From: an uncultured Selenomonadales bacterium
GTDB taxonomy: Bacteria > Bacillota > Negativicutes > Selenomonadales > Selenomonadaceae
Assembly (NCBI GenBank): GCA_946411735.1
Contig: CAMKFB010000004.1
Location: forward strand, 1 to 64,000
Length of the DNA: 64,000 bases
Reading direction: 5' to 3'
How positions within the stretch are numbered: position 1 is the first letter of the stretch; each line of letters begins with the position of its first letter. The position numbers and the translations under genes are program-made. The notes beneath the pieces were generated by a model. That model made no database searches. It worked only from the letters and a program-made list of their open reading frames with translations, and had not been told where the DNA came from. This document shows positions 9,691 to 63,374 of the stretch, piece after piece.

Positions 9691-11997
9691 ATGCAGAGTT
9701 TTGAGATTGAACTCGGCGGAAGGAAGTTGATCGTCGAGCACGGAAAAATGGCGAAGCAGGCGAACGGCGCCGTGCTCGTGCGCTACGGGGACTCCGCGGT
9801 GCTGGTGACGGCGACGATGTCGACCGCGCCGCGGGAGGGCATCGACTTTTTCCCGCTGACGGTCGACTACGAAGAAAAAATGTATTCGGCGGGGAAAATC
9901 CCGGGCGGCTTTATCAAACGCGAGGGGCGTCCGCCGCAGTCGGCGATCCTCCGCAGCCGGCTGATCGATCGCCCGCTCCGTCCGCTGTTCGATAAGGGAA
10001 TGCGCAACGACGTGCAGATCGTGGCGACGGTGCTGTGCTTCGATCAGGACAACGCGCCCGAGGTCGCGGGCATGTTCGGAGCGTCGTGTGCGCTGGCGAT
10101 ATCCGATATCCCGTGGGCGGGACCGATCGCGGGCGTGAGAGTCGGGCGAATCGGCGAGGATTTCATCATCAATCCGACGGTCGAGCAAACCGAGCAGTCC
10201 GATCTCGATCTGATGGTGGCGGGTTCGCGCGACGCGGTGATGATGGTCGAGGCGGGCGCGAACGAGTTATCCGAGGACATAATTCTCGACGCGATCCTGT
10301 TCGGTCACGAGGAGATCAAAAAATTGGTCGCGTTCCAAGATGAAATCATCGCGGCGGTCGGCAAGCCGAAGAAGGAAGTAAAATTATTCGCGGTCGATGA
10401 AGAGCTCGACAAGGCGGTGCGGGCGTTCGCGACGGAGAAAATCAACGTAGCGGTGCGCAATCCCGATAAACAGGCGCGCGACGAGGCAGTCAAGGCGGTG
10501 GGCGCGGCGACGGTCGAATACATTTCCGATCAAATGCATGAGCCGCCGCCGCCCGAAGTCGAGAAGGCAATCGGCAGCATCATTCACGACGTGACGAAGG
10601 AGATTGTCCGTCGAATGATCACGCATGAAAAAATTCGTCCCGATGGGCGCGGCTTGGAAGAAGTTCGACCGATCGAGTGTGAAGTCGGTTTGTTCGCGCG
10701 CACGCACGGCTCGGGGCTTTTCACGCGCGGTCAGACGCAGGTGCTGACGATCACCACACTCGGCGCGATCGGCGATGAGCAGATCGTTGACGGGTTGGAA
10801 CCGGAGTATACGAAACATTACTTGCATCAGTACAATTTCCCGGGCTACAGCGTGGGCGAGGCGCGTCCGATGCGGAGCCCCGGGCGTCGAGAGATCGGGC
10901 ATGGGGCGTTGGCGGAGCGCGCGCTCGAGCGGATGATCCCGTCGATCGAAGATTTTCCGTATACGATCCGACTGGTCTCTGAGGTACTCGAATCAAACGG
11001 CTCGAGTTCGATGGGGAGCGTTTGCGGCTCGACGCTGTCATTGATGAACGCGGGCGTGAAGATCAAGCGACCGGTTTCGGGCGTGGCGATGGGGCTGGTC
11101 AAAGACGGCGACGCGCACACGATTTTGACGGACATTCAGGGCATGGAGGATGCGCTCGGCGACATGGATTTCAAGGTGGCCGGCACGACCGAGGGCATCA
11201 CGGCAATCCAGATGGATATCAAGGTGGCGGGCATCGATCGGGAGATTTTGTCGGACGCGCTTGCTCAAGCGAAACGCGGTCGGGCGTTCATCCTATCGAA
11301 AATGCTCGAGACGATCAGCGAGCCCGCGCCCGATCTGTCGCCGTACGCGCCGCGCGTCAAGATTATCAAGATTGACGTCGACAAGATTCGTGAGGTCATC
11401 GGTCCGGGCGGCAAGATGGTCAACAAGATTATCGATGAGACGGGCGTGCAGATTGACATTCACGACGACGGTAACATTTTCGTGACTTCGCCCGATCTCG
11501 AGTCGATTGACAAGGCGCTCAAGATGATTGAGAACATCGTGCACGAGATTACGGTGGGCGAGGTGTTCAATGCGACGGTGGTGCGGATTATCAACATCGG
11601 CGCGTTCGTCGAGCTTTTGCCCGGGCGCGAGGCGCTCTGCCACATATCGCAACTGGCGCGGCGGCGCGTGGAGAAGGTTGAGGATGTGGTGAAAATCGGC
11701 GACACGCTTGAGGTGAAGGTGACGGAGATCGACGACAAGGGGCGGATCAACGTAAGTCACAGCGCGCTGATGGAGCCGACGGTCGGCGAAGGCGGAGGCA
11801 ATCGTTCGCCGAGACCGAGCGGCGGCGGAGCTCCGCGCGGAGGAAGCGGCGGCGGTCGACCGAGCGGCAGCGGCGGAGGCAATCGTCCGCCGAGATCGAG
11901 CGGCGGCAGCAATTCATTCGGCAATCGGTTGGCGGATCGGTTCAATCGTAGCGAGCGCGGCGAAGGACGGCGCGGCGGAGATCGGCGTCGGAGTTAA
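9691..11997 (+). CDS. pnp: Polyribonucleotide nucleotidyltransferase (PNPase)
   Basis: PNPase degrades RNA 3'-to-5' by phosphorolysis. The protein has 768 residues. Two RNase PH domains flank a helical domain, and the second contains the catalytic aspartate region ([18 protein letters not shown]). A KH domain (about 552-612, [12 protein letters not shown]) and an S1 domain (about 620-690) follow. The last 70 or so residues are an unusual low-complexity tail of Gly, Arg, Ser and Pro ending in basic residues, likely an extra RNA-binding tail. ATG 9691 has TTGGAGG at 9675-9681. Confidence 0.97.
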
Positions 11998-33244: not shown

Positions 33245-35065
33245 ATGCAGAAGGCGGGAATGGATAGCTTCGTCGCTCGCGTCCGTGATGACTCCGATAT
33301 CCTCTCGGTCGTCGCGCGCTACGTCACGCTCACTCAAAAGGGCGGGCGATATTGGGCGTGTTGCCCGTTTCATTCCGAGAAGACGCCGTCCTTCACCGTC
33401 GATCCGAACAAGGGTTTTTATCACTGCTTCGGTTGCGGCGCCGGCGGCAATGTCTTCAACTTCATCTCGAAAATGGAGAATATCTCCTACTTCGACGCCG
33501 TCAAGCTCCAGGCTCGTCGATTGAACATCCCGCTGCCGAACGAGCGCCCGCGCTCCGTCGCCGAGATTGAAGCCGAGCGCGAAGAGAAGGCGCTCTACGA
33601 AGTCAACGAACTGGCGCGCAATTTCTTCCACAACTGCCTGACGCTCACGCCCTACGGCGAAAACGCGCGAGAATATCTTGCCGGGCGCGGCATTTCCGAG
33701 GAGATCATCAAAGACTTCAAACTCGGCTACGCGCCCAATGATTGGGATAAACTTTCGAACGCGTTCGTCAAGCGGGGCATCGCGACGAAGCATTTGATCG
33801 ACGCCGGTCTCGTCGGTCAACGCACTCGAGATCGCGGTCTCTACGATCGTTTTCGCGATCGCGTGATGATCCCCATCGTCGATACGACAGGGCATGTGCT
33901 CGCCTTCGGCGGTCGCGTTCTCAATTCGAACGGCGATTCGATCGTCGACGCGCCCAAATATCTCAACTCCCCCGAGACGCGCATCTTCAATAAGCGCCGC
34001 GTCCTGTTCGGTCTCGATCGGGCGGCGGCGGATATAAGGCGCGAAGGCTTTGCGATCGTCGTCGAGGGCTATATGGACACGATTTCGCTGGTCGCCGCCG
34101 GCATCAAAAACGTCATTGCCACGCTCGGCACCGCTTTCACCGTCGACCACGCCCGCATCCTCACTCGATACTCACGCCGCATCATTTTCTGCTACGACAA
34201 CGACGAGGCCGGGCAACGCGCCACGATGCGCGCCCTGCCGATTATCGCCGACGCCGGCGCTCAAGCTTCCGTGGTGATTGTTCCCGACGGCAAGGACCCC
34301 GACGAATTTGTTCGAAAGCACGGCAGCGATGCCTTTCGAGAGTTGACGGCGAATGCGATGCCCATGATCGATTATCGGATCAAATTCGTGCTCGATCACT
34401 CCGCACTCAATACGCTCGACGACAGAGTCGGCGCGCTTCGCGAAATTCTTTCGTCGATCGCAAAAATGCACGACTCCGCACTAAGAAACGAGTACGGTCG
34501 AAAGATCGCCTCGGCGCTCGATCTCGATCAGAGCACCGTCAACAGCGAATGGCGAAATATCTCGCTCGGTCGAGCGTCAAATGCCTCGGCGGGGCGGGTC
34601 ATCAATATAAACACCGTCCGCGCGGAGGCGCAAAGCGATGCGTCGTGGCGCTCGTGGCGGACGCTGATCCGAGCCGGTTGGCACGCGACAGAACTGCTCG
34701 AACACGCACTCACGTTGCTGCCGAAGGAGGAATTCCCGAAACTTCATCGTGAGATCGTGACGTACCTCGAAAAATGCATACAAGAGGAGCGCCGCCCCGA
34801 TGATGTGTCCGCCGCACAAGAGTTGAGCGACGAGGCGATGTCGGAGCTGTCGGAGTGTCTTGTCGGCTCGAACGAAGAGCTGTCGACGGAGGAAGTTCAA
34901 TCCTACATGGATTCGTTGAAATTGCTCCGCGTCGAATTTTTGAGCCGGCAATATCAAAAACTAATGGACGATCTTGAAAAACATCCGCGCGGCTCGCCCG
35001 AATTTGCCGAGACATTATCACAGGCACAACGTGTAAAGGGTGAGCTCGACGTTAAAAAATTTTGA
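33245..35065 (+). CDS. dnaG: DNA primase
   Basis: DnaG makes RNA primers for replication. The protein has 606 residues. The zinc-binding domain has C40, H43, C61 and C64 ([19 protein letters not shown]). The TOPRIM core has VVEGYMD and the acidic FCYDNDEAG. The C-terminal helical part should bind DnaB. ATG 33245 follows GGAGG; ATG 33260 is an alternative. rpoD follows 23 bp later, the macromolecular-synthesis operon arrangement. Confidence 0.96.
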
Positions 35066-35088
35066 TGCAAAGCAAAGGGGGCTGCTGT

Positions 35089-36285
35089 ATGACAGATGAT
35101 AGCAATAAGGAAGTTATGCTGCCGGAGGACGGGCTGAATCGCAGCTCCCAAATCGTGGCGGATTTGCTCGGCAAGGGCAAGGAAAATGGCGGGACTCTCA
35201 CCTACGGGGAGATGTTCGAGGCGCTGCAGAAGCAGGATTTGTCGCCGGAGGAGATCGAGGAGCTGTTCGACACGTTCAGTCAGAACGGGATTGAGATTAT
35301 CGACGATCTCGACGACGAAGAAGACGAGCCCGACGAGATTGATGAGACGATGCCGCCGCCGGTGGTCGAAAACGAACAGACCGAAAAGGAGAAGACGCGC
35401 GTGACGCCGCCTCCTCCGACGCCCGCGGTCGATTTGAGCGTGCCGGAGGGCATCTCGATCGACGATCCGGTGCGAATGTATTTGAAGGAGATCGGGCGGG
35501 TGCCGCTGCTGACGGCGCAAGAAGAAGTCGATCTCGCAAAGCAGATGGAGGCGGGCGACGAAGAGGCGCAAAAACGGCTGGCGGAGTCGAACTTGCGACT
35601 GGTCGTGAGTATCGCCAAGCGCTATGTCGGGCGCGGCATGCTCTTCCTCGATCTGATTCAAGAGGGCAATCTCGGGCTGATCAAAGCCGTTGAGAAGTTC
35701 GATTACAACAAGGGCTATAAGTTCAGCACGTATGCGACGTGGTGGATCAGGCAGGCGATCACGCGCGCGATTGCCGATCAAGCGCGGACGATCCGAATCC
35801 CTGTTCATATGGTTGAGACGATCAACAAATTGATCCGCGTGTCGAGGCAACTGCTTCAGAAACTCGGGCGGGAACCGACCGCCGACGAGATTGCCAAGGA
35901 GATGGATGTGAGCGTCGACCGCGTGCGCGAGATCATGAAAATCGCGCAAGAGCCGGTATCGCTCGAGACTCCGATCGGCGAAGAGGAGGATTCACATTTG
36001 GGCGATTTCATTGAAGATCAGGACGCGCAAGCGCCGGCGGACGCGGCATCGTTCCAACTGTTGAAGGAGCAGCTCGGCGAGGTGTTGAGCACGTTGACGG
36101 AGCGCGAACAGAAGGTCTTGATATTGCGCTTCGGTCTCGACGAGACGGGGCGTGCGCGGACGCTCGAGGAGGTCGGACAAAGTTTCGGCGTCACTCGGGA
36201 GCGCATCAGGCAGATCGAGGCGAAGGCGCTTCGCAAGTTGCGTCATCCGTCGAGGAGCAAAAAGCTGAAGGATTTTCTTGACTGA
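35089..36285 (+). CDS. rpoD: Primary RNA polymerase sigma factor (sigma-70/SigA)
   Basis: This is the housekeeping sigma factor. The protein has 398 residues. An acidic region 1.1 and linker (about 1-115) are followed by region 1.2 ([17 protein letters not shown]), region 2 ([40 protein letters not shown]), region 3 and the region 4 helix-turn-helix ([27 protein letters not shown]). ATG 35089 has AAAGGGGG upstream; the longer frame is not needed. It is co-transcribed with dnaG and ends at an intrinsic terminator. Confidence 0.97.
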
Positions 36286-36345: not shown

Positions 36346-36987
36346 ATGAATTTGAAGGACGCATTTCAAACGCAAAACGCCTTCAACAGGCTGAGCGATT
36401 ACGCGGCGGAGTATCTTGACGACGAGGGCGTTTTGATGACGGTCAAGGAAAAGCATTTTCGGTCGAAGGCGGTTGCCGGTCAGCCCGACGAGGAGCTTGA
36501 CGTGACAAATTACGACGCGAAAAGATTTCCGACGGACGGCGTGATCAAATTTCTGTTTCGCTTGATCGAGGAACGGGAGAAATTATCACACGCGATCCAT
36601 GCGGCGAAGGCTCAAATGAGCTTTGATCTGGACACGGCGGTCGATGCGAATCGGCGGCGGCATGCGCTGGCGTCGACGCTCAATGCGCTCGTCCGTCAGC
36701 AGAGCTCGCACACAATCCGGAAGAACGAGGGGCGCGGCTACGTCTTCAACAAGGAAGGCAATCAGACGGAGTATCGCTACGATATCGAGCGCATTCAGAC
36801 GATTGACTACGATCGGAATAAGGTTCGCAAACAGTTGAAGGAGCTGTACGCTCAAGCGGATAAGATTTCGACGGAGATCGATCTGGCGCTGCTCGGGACG
36901 GAAGTGGATTACGAGTTGCCGTTCGACATTCACGGCGATCCCGATTCGATCATCGAGGAGTTCATTTCCCACCCGGCGGCAAAATAA
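36346..36987 (+). CDS. Hypothetical protein, charged and helical
   Basis: The protein has 213 residues, no signal peptide and no membrane segment. It is mostly charged helix, with likely coiled coils around 75-105 (KFLFRLIEEREKLSHAIHAAK) and 155-190 (NKVRKQLKELYAQADKIS). I recognise no family; the acidic C-terminus (DIHGDPDSIIEEF) is unremarkable. ATG 36346 has GGGAGG at 36333-36338. It lies between rpoD and the candidate structured RNA, on the same strand. The RNA could therefore be part of its 3' untranslated region. Confidence 0.6.
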   Translation: MNLKDAFQTQNAFNRLSDYAAEYLDDEGVLMTVKEKHFRSKAVAGQPDEELDVTNYDAKRFPTDGVIKFLFRLIEEREKLSHAIHAAKAQMSFDLDTAVDANRRRHALASTLNALVRQQSSHTIRKNEGRGYVFNKEGNQTEYRYDIERIQTIDYDRNKVRKQLKELYAQADKISTEIDLALLGTEVDYELPFDIHGDPDSIIEEFISHPAAK

Positions 36988-36989
36988 AG

Positions 36990-37260
36990 GCTTATGCTGA
37001 GGCTCGACCGATCGGTTCAGGTGCAGATGAACTGCGAGGCTGCACAAACCTTTCGAATAAGATCGTGATGTCAATGGAGACTCACGGTGAACGAGGCGCT
37101 TCCGTCGTTCGACAACGCGCCCGCTCGAAATCCGTTAGCCCTTACGTCTTCATTCGACATTCAAAATGACGCTTCACCGCTCCGGCTTATGAGTTATTCC
37201 AACCCTGTCGGCGGTTTCGACCGTCGGCTCAAATTGATCGGCTCGAGCCCTTCAACATAG
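36990..37260 (+). ncRNA. Candidate structured RNA of about 265 nt, family not recognised
   Basis: The 287-bp gap has no ORF but strong fold potential. Positions 36994-37013 pair with 37236-37258: 19 Watson-Crick pairs with three single-base bulges and one mismatch. Inside, GTGCAG (37021-37026) pairs with CTGCAC, TTTCGA (37051-37056) with TCGAAA (37135-37140), CGTGA with TCACG, and CGGT-TTCG-ACCG forms a small hairpin. An intrinsic terminator follows at 37262. The signatures of RNase P, tmRNA and SRP RNA are absent. No promoter was identified. It could instead be a folded 3' untranslated region of the upstream gene. Confidence 0.5.
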
Positions 37261-37261
37261 G

Positions 37262-37297
37262 AAAGCATCTTCGTTCATTCGAGCGGAGGTGCTTTTT
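37262..37297 (+). terminator. Intrinsic terminator after the candidate RNA
   Basis: Stem AAAGCATCT (37262-37270) / AGGTGCTTT (37287-37295) with one G-T pair, running into TTTTT. The stop codon of the convergent Sel1 gene lies in its loop. Confidence 0.7.
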
Positions 37298-38051
37298 CAA
37301 TTCCCATTTCTTTCAGCGCCTCCAGCGCCGCCGCTTGAATTTCTTCGTTGTTGCACTTGAGCGCCTGACGGTACCATATTTCCGCACGCCTCAAATTCGG
37401 TCGCTCCCCGCGGAAATACATCTCCGCCAACTCCACCATCGCAAAATCGTAATGAAGTTTCGCCGCCCGCGTCATCAGCCAATACGCCTTGCGAACGTCC
37501 TGCGTCGTGCCGTTGCCGTTATAGCACATCAACGCCAAATTCCTCAGCGCCTCCGGATGATTGAAATGCGCCGCCCGCTCGTACCATTGAAACGCCAACT
37601 GCTCATTGGGCTGCGCGCCCTCGCCTTTGAGACAAATGTACGCCAGATTGACCATCGACTCCGAATTGCCAAGCGCCGCCGCCCTTTTGTAAAGCTCGAC
37701 CGCCTTGAGCAAATCGCGCTCGACGCCGTCGCCCTGATGATACATATAGCCGAGCGCGTTCAATGCGGCGCCGTCGTCCTTATCCGCCGCGCGCATAAAC
37801 CACTCGACCGCCTTATTTGCGCTCTTTCGAGTGCCTTCGCCCGAGTGATACATCTCCGCCAGACTCCTCATCGCGTCGATGTTGCCTGCCTCCGCCGCCG
37901 CCTTGTACCATTTGAACGCCAGCCGATAGTTGCGCGCGACCAGCTCACCGTTGTAATAAATGTTGCCGACCACATTCATCGCGTCCAAATCGCCGGCTTG
38001 AGCCGCGCGGATGTAATGCTCGATAGTTTTTCGTTCGTTGGGCTCGAGCAT
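37275..38051 (-). CDS. Sel1-repeat (TPR-like) protein
   Basis: The protein has 258 residues made almost entirely of about seven Sel1-like repeats of 36 residues with the pattern AMxxLAxMYxxGEGxxxxxxKAxxWxxxAAxxG (for example AMRSLAEMYHSGEGTRKS and ALNALGYMYHQGDG). Sel1 repeats are helical scaffolds for protein-protein contacts. There is no signal peptide, so it is cytosolic. ATG 38051 overlaps the uspA stop (TGATG), so translation is coupled. Partner and role are unknown. Confidence 0.9.
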   Translation of the reverse strand: MLEPNERKTIEHYIRAAQAGDLDAMNVVGNIYYNGELVARNYRLAFKWYKAAAEAGNIDAMRSLAEMYHSGEGTRKSANKAVEWFMRAADKDDGAALNALGYMYHQGDGVERDLLKAVELYKRAAALGNSESMVNLAYICLKGEGAQPNEQLAFQWYERAAHFNHPEALRNLALMCYNGNGTTQDVRKAYWLMTRAAKLHYDFAMVELAEMYFRGERPNLRRAEIWYRQALKCNNEEIQAAALEALKEMGIEKAPPLE

Positions 38052-63027: not shown

Positions 63028-63374
63028 GATGAGGCGGTGCTCGATAAGCCGGATTCTGTTTTTCAGGCAATCATTTATCTGGACTCGTCGTCGCCGACGA
63101 GCTCAAGCTGTCTACCCGAGACCTCGCCGAGCAGGGTCCGCAGTCTCCTATCTGACATTGCACCGCGTGAGGTTTGTCAGCCCATGACGTTGCCGCCATG
63201 TCGGTGAGCTCTTGCCTCGCCTTTTCACCCTTACCGATCGAAATCGGCGGTTTGCTTTTCTGTGACACTGTCTTGCAGATTACTCCGACCGGTCGTTAGC
63301 CGGCACGCCGCTCTGTGGTGTCCGGACTTTCCTCGAGCGTTGCCGCCCGCGATTGCCTCGAGCACCGCCTCATC
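63028..63374 (-). ncRNA. rnpB: RNase P RNA (class A)
   Basis: The catalytic RNA of RNase P, which matures tRNA 5' ends. On the minus strand the 5' part has the conserved GAGGAAAGTCC and the 3' end has ACAGAATCCGGCTTATCG. The closing P1 helix is a perfect 17-bp pairing of 63358-63374 with 63028-63044. Length is about 347 nt. Open frames across it are spurious. Confidence 0.95.

Follow-up and report, generated by a model that had tools for sequence, protein, structure and literature searches.

The window, by which we mean the whole stretch of 64,000 nucleotides that was analysed, from an uncultured Selenomonadales bacterium, contains a structured RNA of about 270 nt at 36991-37261 on the plus strand. 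It occupies the gap between a hypothetical gene that ends at 36987 and a convergent Sel1 gene. The first-pass annotation had placed it shortly after rpoD, and indeed rpoD (35062-36285) is separated from it by the single hypothetical gene. The plus strand of 36980-37300 folds at -117.4 kcal/mol, compared with -94.1 +/- 5.3 for shuffled sequences (z = -4.40, with 0 of 100 shuffles as good), and the minus strand gives a weaker signal (z = -3.03). The long closing stem proposed earlier, a pairing of 36994-37013 with 37236-37258, is present as 19 pairs in a few blocks, and three further outer pairs (36991-36993 with 37259-37261) bring it to 22 bp; we call it P1. Several internal helices do appear in the minimum-energy fold, but several lack support in an alignment of homologues, and the helices within the variable domain come from single-sequence folding of a region whose sequence is not conserved. 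The proposed intrinsic terminator corresponds to a hairpin with TTTTTC that overlaps the 3' end of the Sel1 gene, but this hairpin is absent from the list produced by a simple terminator scan. The parts of the window copy are collected in Table 1.

Table 1. Features of the RNA locus in the window, with the observations bearing on each.
Feature	Position	Strand	Observation
Linked-protein gene, about 213 aa (MNLKDAFQTQNAF...)	36346-36987	+	no Pfam, NCBIfam, PHROG or PADLOC family
P1 5' arm, closing stem	36991-37013	+	begins 4 nt past stop codon; coevolution over 80 homologues
Conserved H-type pseudoknot	37014-37045	+	two-sided compensatory changes in both stems
Pseudoknot stem S1	37015-37019/37028-37032	+	
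Pseudoknot stem S2	37021-37026/37040-37045	+	
Pseudoknot loops	G37020, A37027, 37033-37039	+	
Variable domain 3' of pseudoknot	37046-37117	+	variable in homologue alignment
G-poor region, counterpart of the 8-nt periodic array of homologues	37118-37168	+	periodicity weak in window copy
Second conserved motif, ACGCYTCNCC-like, here ACGCTTCACC	37169-37178	+	sequence comparison
3' hairpin GTCGGCGGT-TTCG-ACCGTCGGC	37207-37228	+	sits where consensus 3' hairpin does
P1 3' arm	37236-37261	+	pairing and coevolution in homologues
Terminator-like hairpin 37261-37276/37281-37296, then T run	37261-37298	+	16 bp, -22.5 kcal/mol

The RNA family is absent from Rfam. With the Rfam 15 covariance models, raiA, OLE, GOLLD and ROOL among them, the window copy passed the gathering score of no family, and relaxing the cut-off to E 10 brought up no plausible hit; at 19 homologous loci there was no match at the RNA at E up to 1, and eight phage loci yielded only tRNA, twister-P5 and abiF, none of them at the RNA. 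The search works, because it detected an ordinary class A RNase P RNA elsewhere in the window (63029-63369, minus strand). The earlier exclusion of RNase P, tmRNA and SRP RNA by signature agrees with these models, none of which matches at the RNA. We also considered and rejected an identity with 6S RNA (the first-pass annotation had noted that the locus exceeds a typical 6S RNA in size), since RF00013 finds the 6S RNA of this genome on another contig (G000:C8:13252-13431). The literature consulted, an incomplete coverage that includes the main text of PMC8040213, yielded no description of the RNA.

A DNA search with the gap sequence against related genomes revealed a short core with hardly any variation in 19 genomes of the same genus, and every alignment fell on window positions 37004-37049. 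A scan for the pattern GGTTCAGNNGCAGATGAACTNNGANGCTGC, in which each species was represented by a single genome, gave 60 loci, the majority in the Selenomonadaceae (Selenomonas, Anaerovibrio, Quinella and rumen MAGs) and the remainder in Lachnospiraceae, Flavonifractor, Oscillibacter and Ruminococcaceae. Among the carriers are the cultured strains Selenomonas ruminantium ATCC 12561 (L059) and Anaerovibrio sp. RM50 (L055). Homologues come from dozens of Selenomonadaceae, from several families of Clostridia and from large phage contigs of IMG/VR; the RNA is about 265-270 nt long, and homologues reach about 480 nt. The family is real and structured, and it occurs in large phages as well as in two classes of bacteria.

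The core is an H-type pseudoknot, which the first-pass annotation had missed along with the tie to the upstream gene. It consists of S1 (GUUCA/UGAAC), a one-nucleotide loop, S2 (GUGCAG/CUGCAC) and a seven-nucleotide third loop. S2 is 97% paired among 32 distinct cellular cores, and four of its six pairs have changed on both sides. In phage copies the S1 pairing GGUUCA/UGAACU is replaced by GCUUCA/UGAAGU or GUUUCA/UGAAAU, and we regard S1 as proven because of these compensatory changes. When 47 distinct cores are taken together, 97.7% of cells pair, and there are 53 two-sided changes, where shuffles give 16 +/- 3 and slid versions no more than 21. G-U pairs occur on the plus strand, a point in favour of that strand. 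The pseudoknot is nearly invariant, with compensatory changes in both stems, and the core of this family, new to Rfam, is conserved as strictly as in known functional RNAs. With this covariation and the lack of any Rfam match, the original description of the locus as an unassigned structured RNA is borne out.

P1 behaves differently, in that its arms have wholly different sequences across lineages and their pairing is almost always retained. Over 80 homologues, a copy's own arms pair at -55.7 kcal/mol, compared with -30.3 kcal/mol for arms exchanged among lineages, and in 73 of the 80 the native pairing is stronger than any of eight swaps. Among the exceptions are L155 and L166, which we take to be false core matches, spurious additional matches in L027 and L069, one pair of near-duplicates and two more. 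Only three elements are supported by RNAalifold on the Selenomonadaceae alignment, namely the inner portion of P1, helix S2 and a 3' hairpin, and the remaining internal helices of the single-sequence fold receive no support there. In part of the genus (L005, L013, L014, L015 and relatives), P1 is made up of TTGCGCATTACGTCTTGCGCATTG-like strings that resemble a dispersed genomic repeat, a composition which suggests that repeats may have been recruited into the stem.

The centre of the RNA is poor in G and, in many homologues, has a period of exactly 8 nt, with units such as AATTCGTC; a 9-nt repeat, judged by eye, was discarded when the period was measured. This degenerate tandem periodicity extends from about +90 to +250 relative to the core. 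Identity at lag 8 is 0.359 where control windows give 0.257, there are echoes at lags of 16 and 23-24, and 39 of 72 sequences lie above the 95% level of the control windows, figures that are inflated by kinship among the sequences. In the window copy the 8-nt periodicity is not significant against control windows. On the 3' side of the array the homologues have the conserved ACGCYTCNCC motif, followed by the 3' hairpin.

The same gene, encoding a protein of about 210 aa, lies upstream of the RNA at nearly all loci with enough sequence, in both bacterial classes and in phages. From stop codon to RNA the distance is usually between 26 and about 120 nt, though in exceptional cases it reaches 485 nt. 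Of 380 genomes in the class, the RNA core was found in 64 and the protein in 70: both occur in 61, the RNA only in 3, the protein only in 9 and neither in 307 (Fisher P = 9e-57, in a sample where related genomes are not independent). At least three of the nine protein-only genomes carry fragments, and three genomes (G249, G256 and G268) have two proteins and two RNAs each. The RNA is found with no detectable protein in G002 and G011, both of which are incomplete and near-identical at the RNA locus; there a promoter-like TTGAAT-17-TATAAT stands just before P1. A search across the homologues for a common promoter ahead of the RNA gave none (mean score 7.9, against a background of 7.8).

No family in Pfam, NCBIfam, PHROGs or PADLOC includes the linked protein, and an assignment to defence or toxin functions was rejected on the same grounds. 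Its AlphaFold2 model is confident (pLDDT 93), and Foldseek finds a single globally similar solved structure, 3kdq (probability 0.95, TM 0.71 by target length, E 0.77), the uncharacterised Corynebacterium diphtheriae protein DIP1984. A DUF6847 member does match 3kdq in sequence, and membership in DUF6847 had been our first guess from sequence for the linked protein as well. That guess is supported by the fold and not by profiles: the PF20935 (DUF6847) model has no match in the window's genome (G000), and a profile-profile comparison of the linked protein with DUF6847 was not significant. Because the sequence profiles fall short of significance, we term the protein DIP1984-like in its predicted fold and do not count it as a DUF6847 member. 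With 30 K/R and 38 D/E residues it is net acidic, a composition that gives no hint of a general RNA-binding surface. Among the other neighbours, an XRE-like HTH gene (VIDPAATGRNIARLRQERG...) recurs near the RNA in L021, L064, L126 and L040, and in L021 and L126 it apparently converges on the RNA and overlaps its 3' end. A reading frame resembling RtcB RNA ligase occurs in one Selenomonadaceae genome (L117), at a distance of about 440 nt from the protein gene and in the orientation shared by that gene and the RNA.

The window copy is chromosomal, and what follows on phages and tRNA genes applies to homologues. A scan of IMG/VR with protein alignment gave 49 loci, most on large contigs and many of these above 80 kb. 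The pseudoknot core lies 3' of the protein gene at about 20 of the loci examined, and at others the gene is followed by another 5' motif; for L122 and L124 no RNA is visible downstream of the protein gene. In L125, L132, L143, L146, L152-L155, L163, L164 and L170, a different-looking RNA downstream of the homologous gene has a short hairpin after the stop codon, a GGGCAG-like stretch, TTCGTTATTCG-like strings and, at the 5' side, a motif such as TTTGACAGTACGCAACTGTTAG. This is possibly a second RNA class sharing the partner protein family. Among named phages and plasmids, none in INPHARED or PLSDB was found to have the protein gene.

Many of the IMG/VR contigs have tRNA genes nearby on the same strand, and on six of them, probably from related phages, a tRNA-Tyr gene follows the last P1 pair at a distance of 0-9 nt. 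Such an order, with the protein gene first, then the structured RNA and then the tRNA, would be expected of a stable RNA excised by tRNA processing. The phage contig L147 also carries an abiF RNA motif (9825-9861) behind its tRNA array and two type-P5 twister ribozymes (587-663 and 1878-1933). A metallo-beta-lactamase-fold protein, resembling beta-CASP nucleases, is encoded right after the RNA/tRNA block in both L147 (10061-11516) and L158 (9624-11079).

Because the RNA adjoins one protein gene in rumen and gut bacteria as well as in giant phages, it is probably half of an RNA-protein module. At a probability of roughly 0.55, we favour a phage-associated ribonucleoprotein in which the RNA acts in trans; its transcription, processing, protein binding and action in trans are what we infer. 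A discrete RNA, closed by the long stem and with the invariant pseudoknot at the stem base, would be transcribed behind the gene for its small, helical, DIP1984-like partner and then released from the transcript, in some phages perhaps through RNase P cleavage at the following tRNA. The released RNA would bind the protein, with the pseudoknot as a specific docking site and the G-poor 8-nt array as a repeated site of lower specificity for further copies, and the product would be a trans-acting RNA-protein particle. The pair behaves like a portable module of large phages, also resident in the chromosomes of Selenomonadaceae and gut Clostridia. From genomic position, our most likely guess is that the particle serves in phage-host competition, or else in matters of tRNA and translation.

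That the RNA is separable from the reading frame, as the gaps of 26-485 nt and the copies in G002 and G011 indicate, speaks for such a module; that the RNA in most copies sits only a short way 3' of the gene, in the gene's orientation and with no shared promoter, speaks against it. Because of this same arrangement, a cis-acting role keeps some weight, and we consider it a rather unlikely reading that still merits attention. P1 and the pseudoknot would then stabilise or autoregulate the upstream mRNA, and the protein may bind its own 3' UTR; in favour of this reading, P1 starts a few nucleotides past the stop codon in most cellular copies. The orphan RNAs, the longest gaps and the phage copies in which a tRNA gene adjoins the end of P1 fit this poorly, however, and the structure far exceeds the needs of a stability element. 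A decaying 3' UTR of the upstream gene is less likely in view of the copies with no protein gene, the range of gaps and the phage copies that abut a tRNA gene. We give next to no credence to a chance fold in the 3' untranslated gap: a single-sequence minimum-energy fold alone would be compatible with one, but the covariation and the invariant core across two classes and phages refute it.

Unlikely, though to be taken seriously, is that the RNA is an antitoxin which neutralises the upstream protein, a toxin, by sequestering it, in the manner of type III systems or of abiF RNA and AbiF. A two-gene module with patchy distribution, phage carriage, matched copy number and repeats in the RNA would suit such a system, and abiF RNA/AbiF offers a precedent (PMC12373285). 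Against this, a type III system has a repeat RNA upstream of a known toxin, whereas here the RNA is downstream and the protein resembles no toxin or PADLOC model and matches nothing in Pfam; there are genomes with only the RNA and with only the protein, and the DIP1984-like fold has no known toxic activity. An RNA-only particle of the GOLLD/ROOL kind, with the protein gene as a linked but separate passenger, seems to us quite improbable. Phage carriage near tRNA genes, a large fold and the lack of a known function are all shared with GOLLD and ROOL (PMC12286853), but this RNA is much smaller and matches neither in Rfam, and a protein kept with its RNA in 61 of 64 genomes does not behave as a passenger.

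Returning to the ribonucleoprotein module, we can offer a more detailed version, tentatively and with more doubt than confidence: a phage-derived ribonucleoprotein of a new class, in which the pseudoknot would serve as an anchor and the 8-nt-periodic strand would be coated in register by copies of the DIP1984-like protein. That such a coated particle would, in addition, reside in tRNA islands of giant phages and be retained by their bacterial hosts deserves, jointly with the coating, the same low level of belief. If true, the DIP1984 fold would acquire a first function, that of partner to an RNA. The solved but unexplained fold could gain a role here, and the presence of a single partner protein makes function accessible to simple binding, pull-down and deletion experiments.

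Several known systems bear comparison with this one. The long closing stem recalls 6S RNA, although no 6S model matches at the RNA. The linked protein resembles DUF6847/DIP1984 in its predicted fold, in a similar N-terminal MxLxEA start and in the order of elements, and differs in being larger, in its long beta hairpin and in escaping recognition by PF20935. Ribonucleoproteins with linked or dedicated proteins include OLE RNA with the Oap proteins and HEARO with IsrB; ours is likewise a structured RNA with a linked protein, but with another protein fold, no Rfam match and the RNA downstream of the gene. Phage-encoded AbiF with the RNA RCd22 (PMC12373285) is, like type III toxin-antitoxin systems, a phage-associated two-gene module of structured RNA and protein; here, by contrast, the RNA is 3' of the gene, the protein is neither AbiF nor a type III toxin, and Rfam gives no match. 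The size range of our family, about 265-480 nt, sets it apart from GOLLD and ROOL, as do the absence of Rfam similarity and the tie to one protein family. Many GOLLD RNAs exceed 800 nt, and ROOL has no known protein partner. What the homologues have in common with these two is carriage by phages near tRNA genes and a pseudoknot, GOLLD and ROOL being long, phage-borne RNAs of unknown function that often adjoin tRNA genes and are structured with pseudoknots (PMC12286853). As a protein-linked counterpart, the RNA described here gives a handle on the function of such phage RNAs beside tRNA genes.
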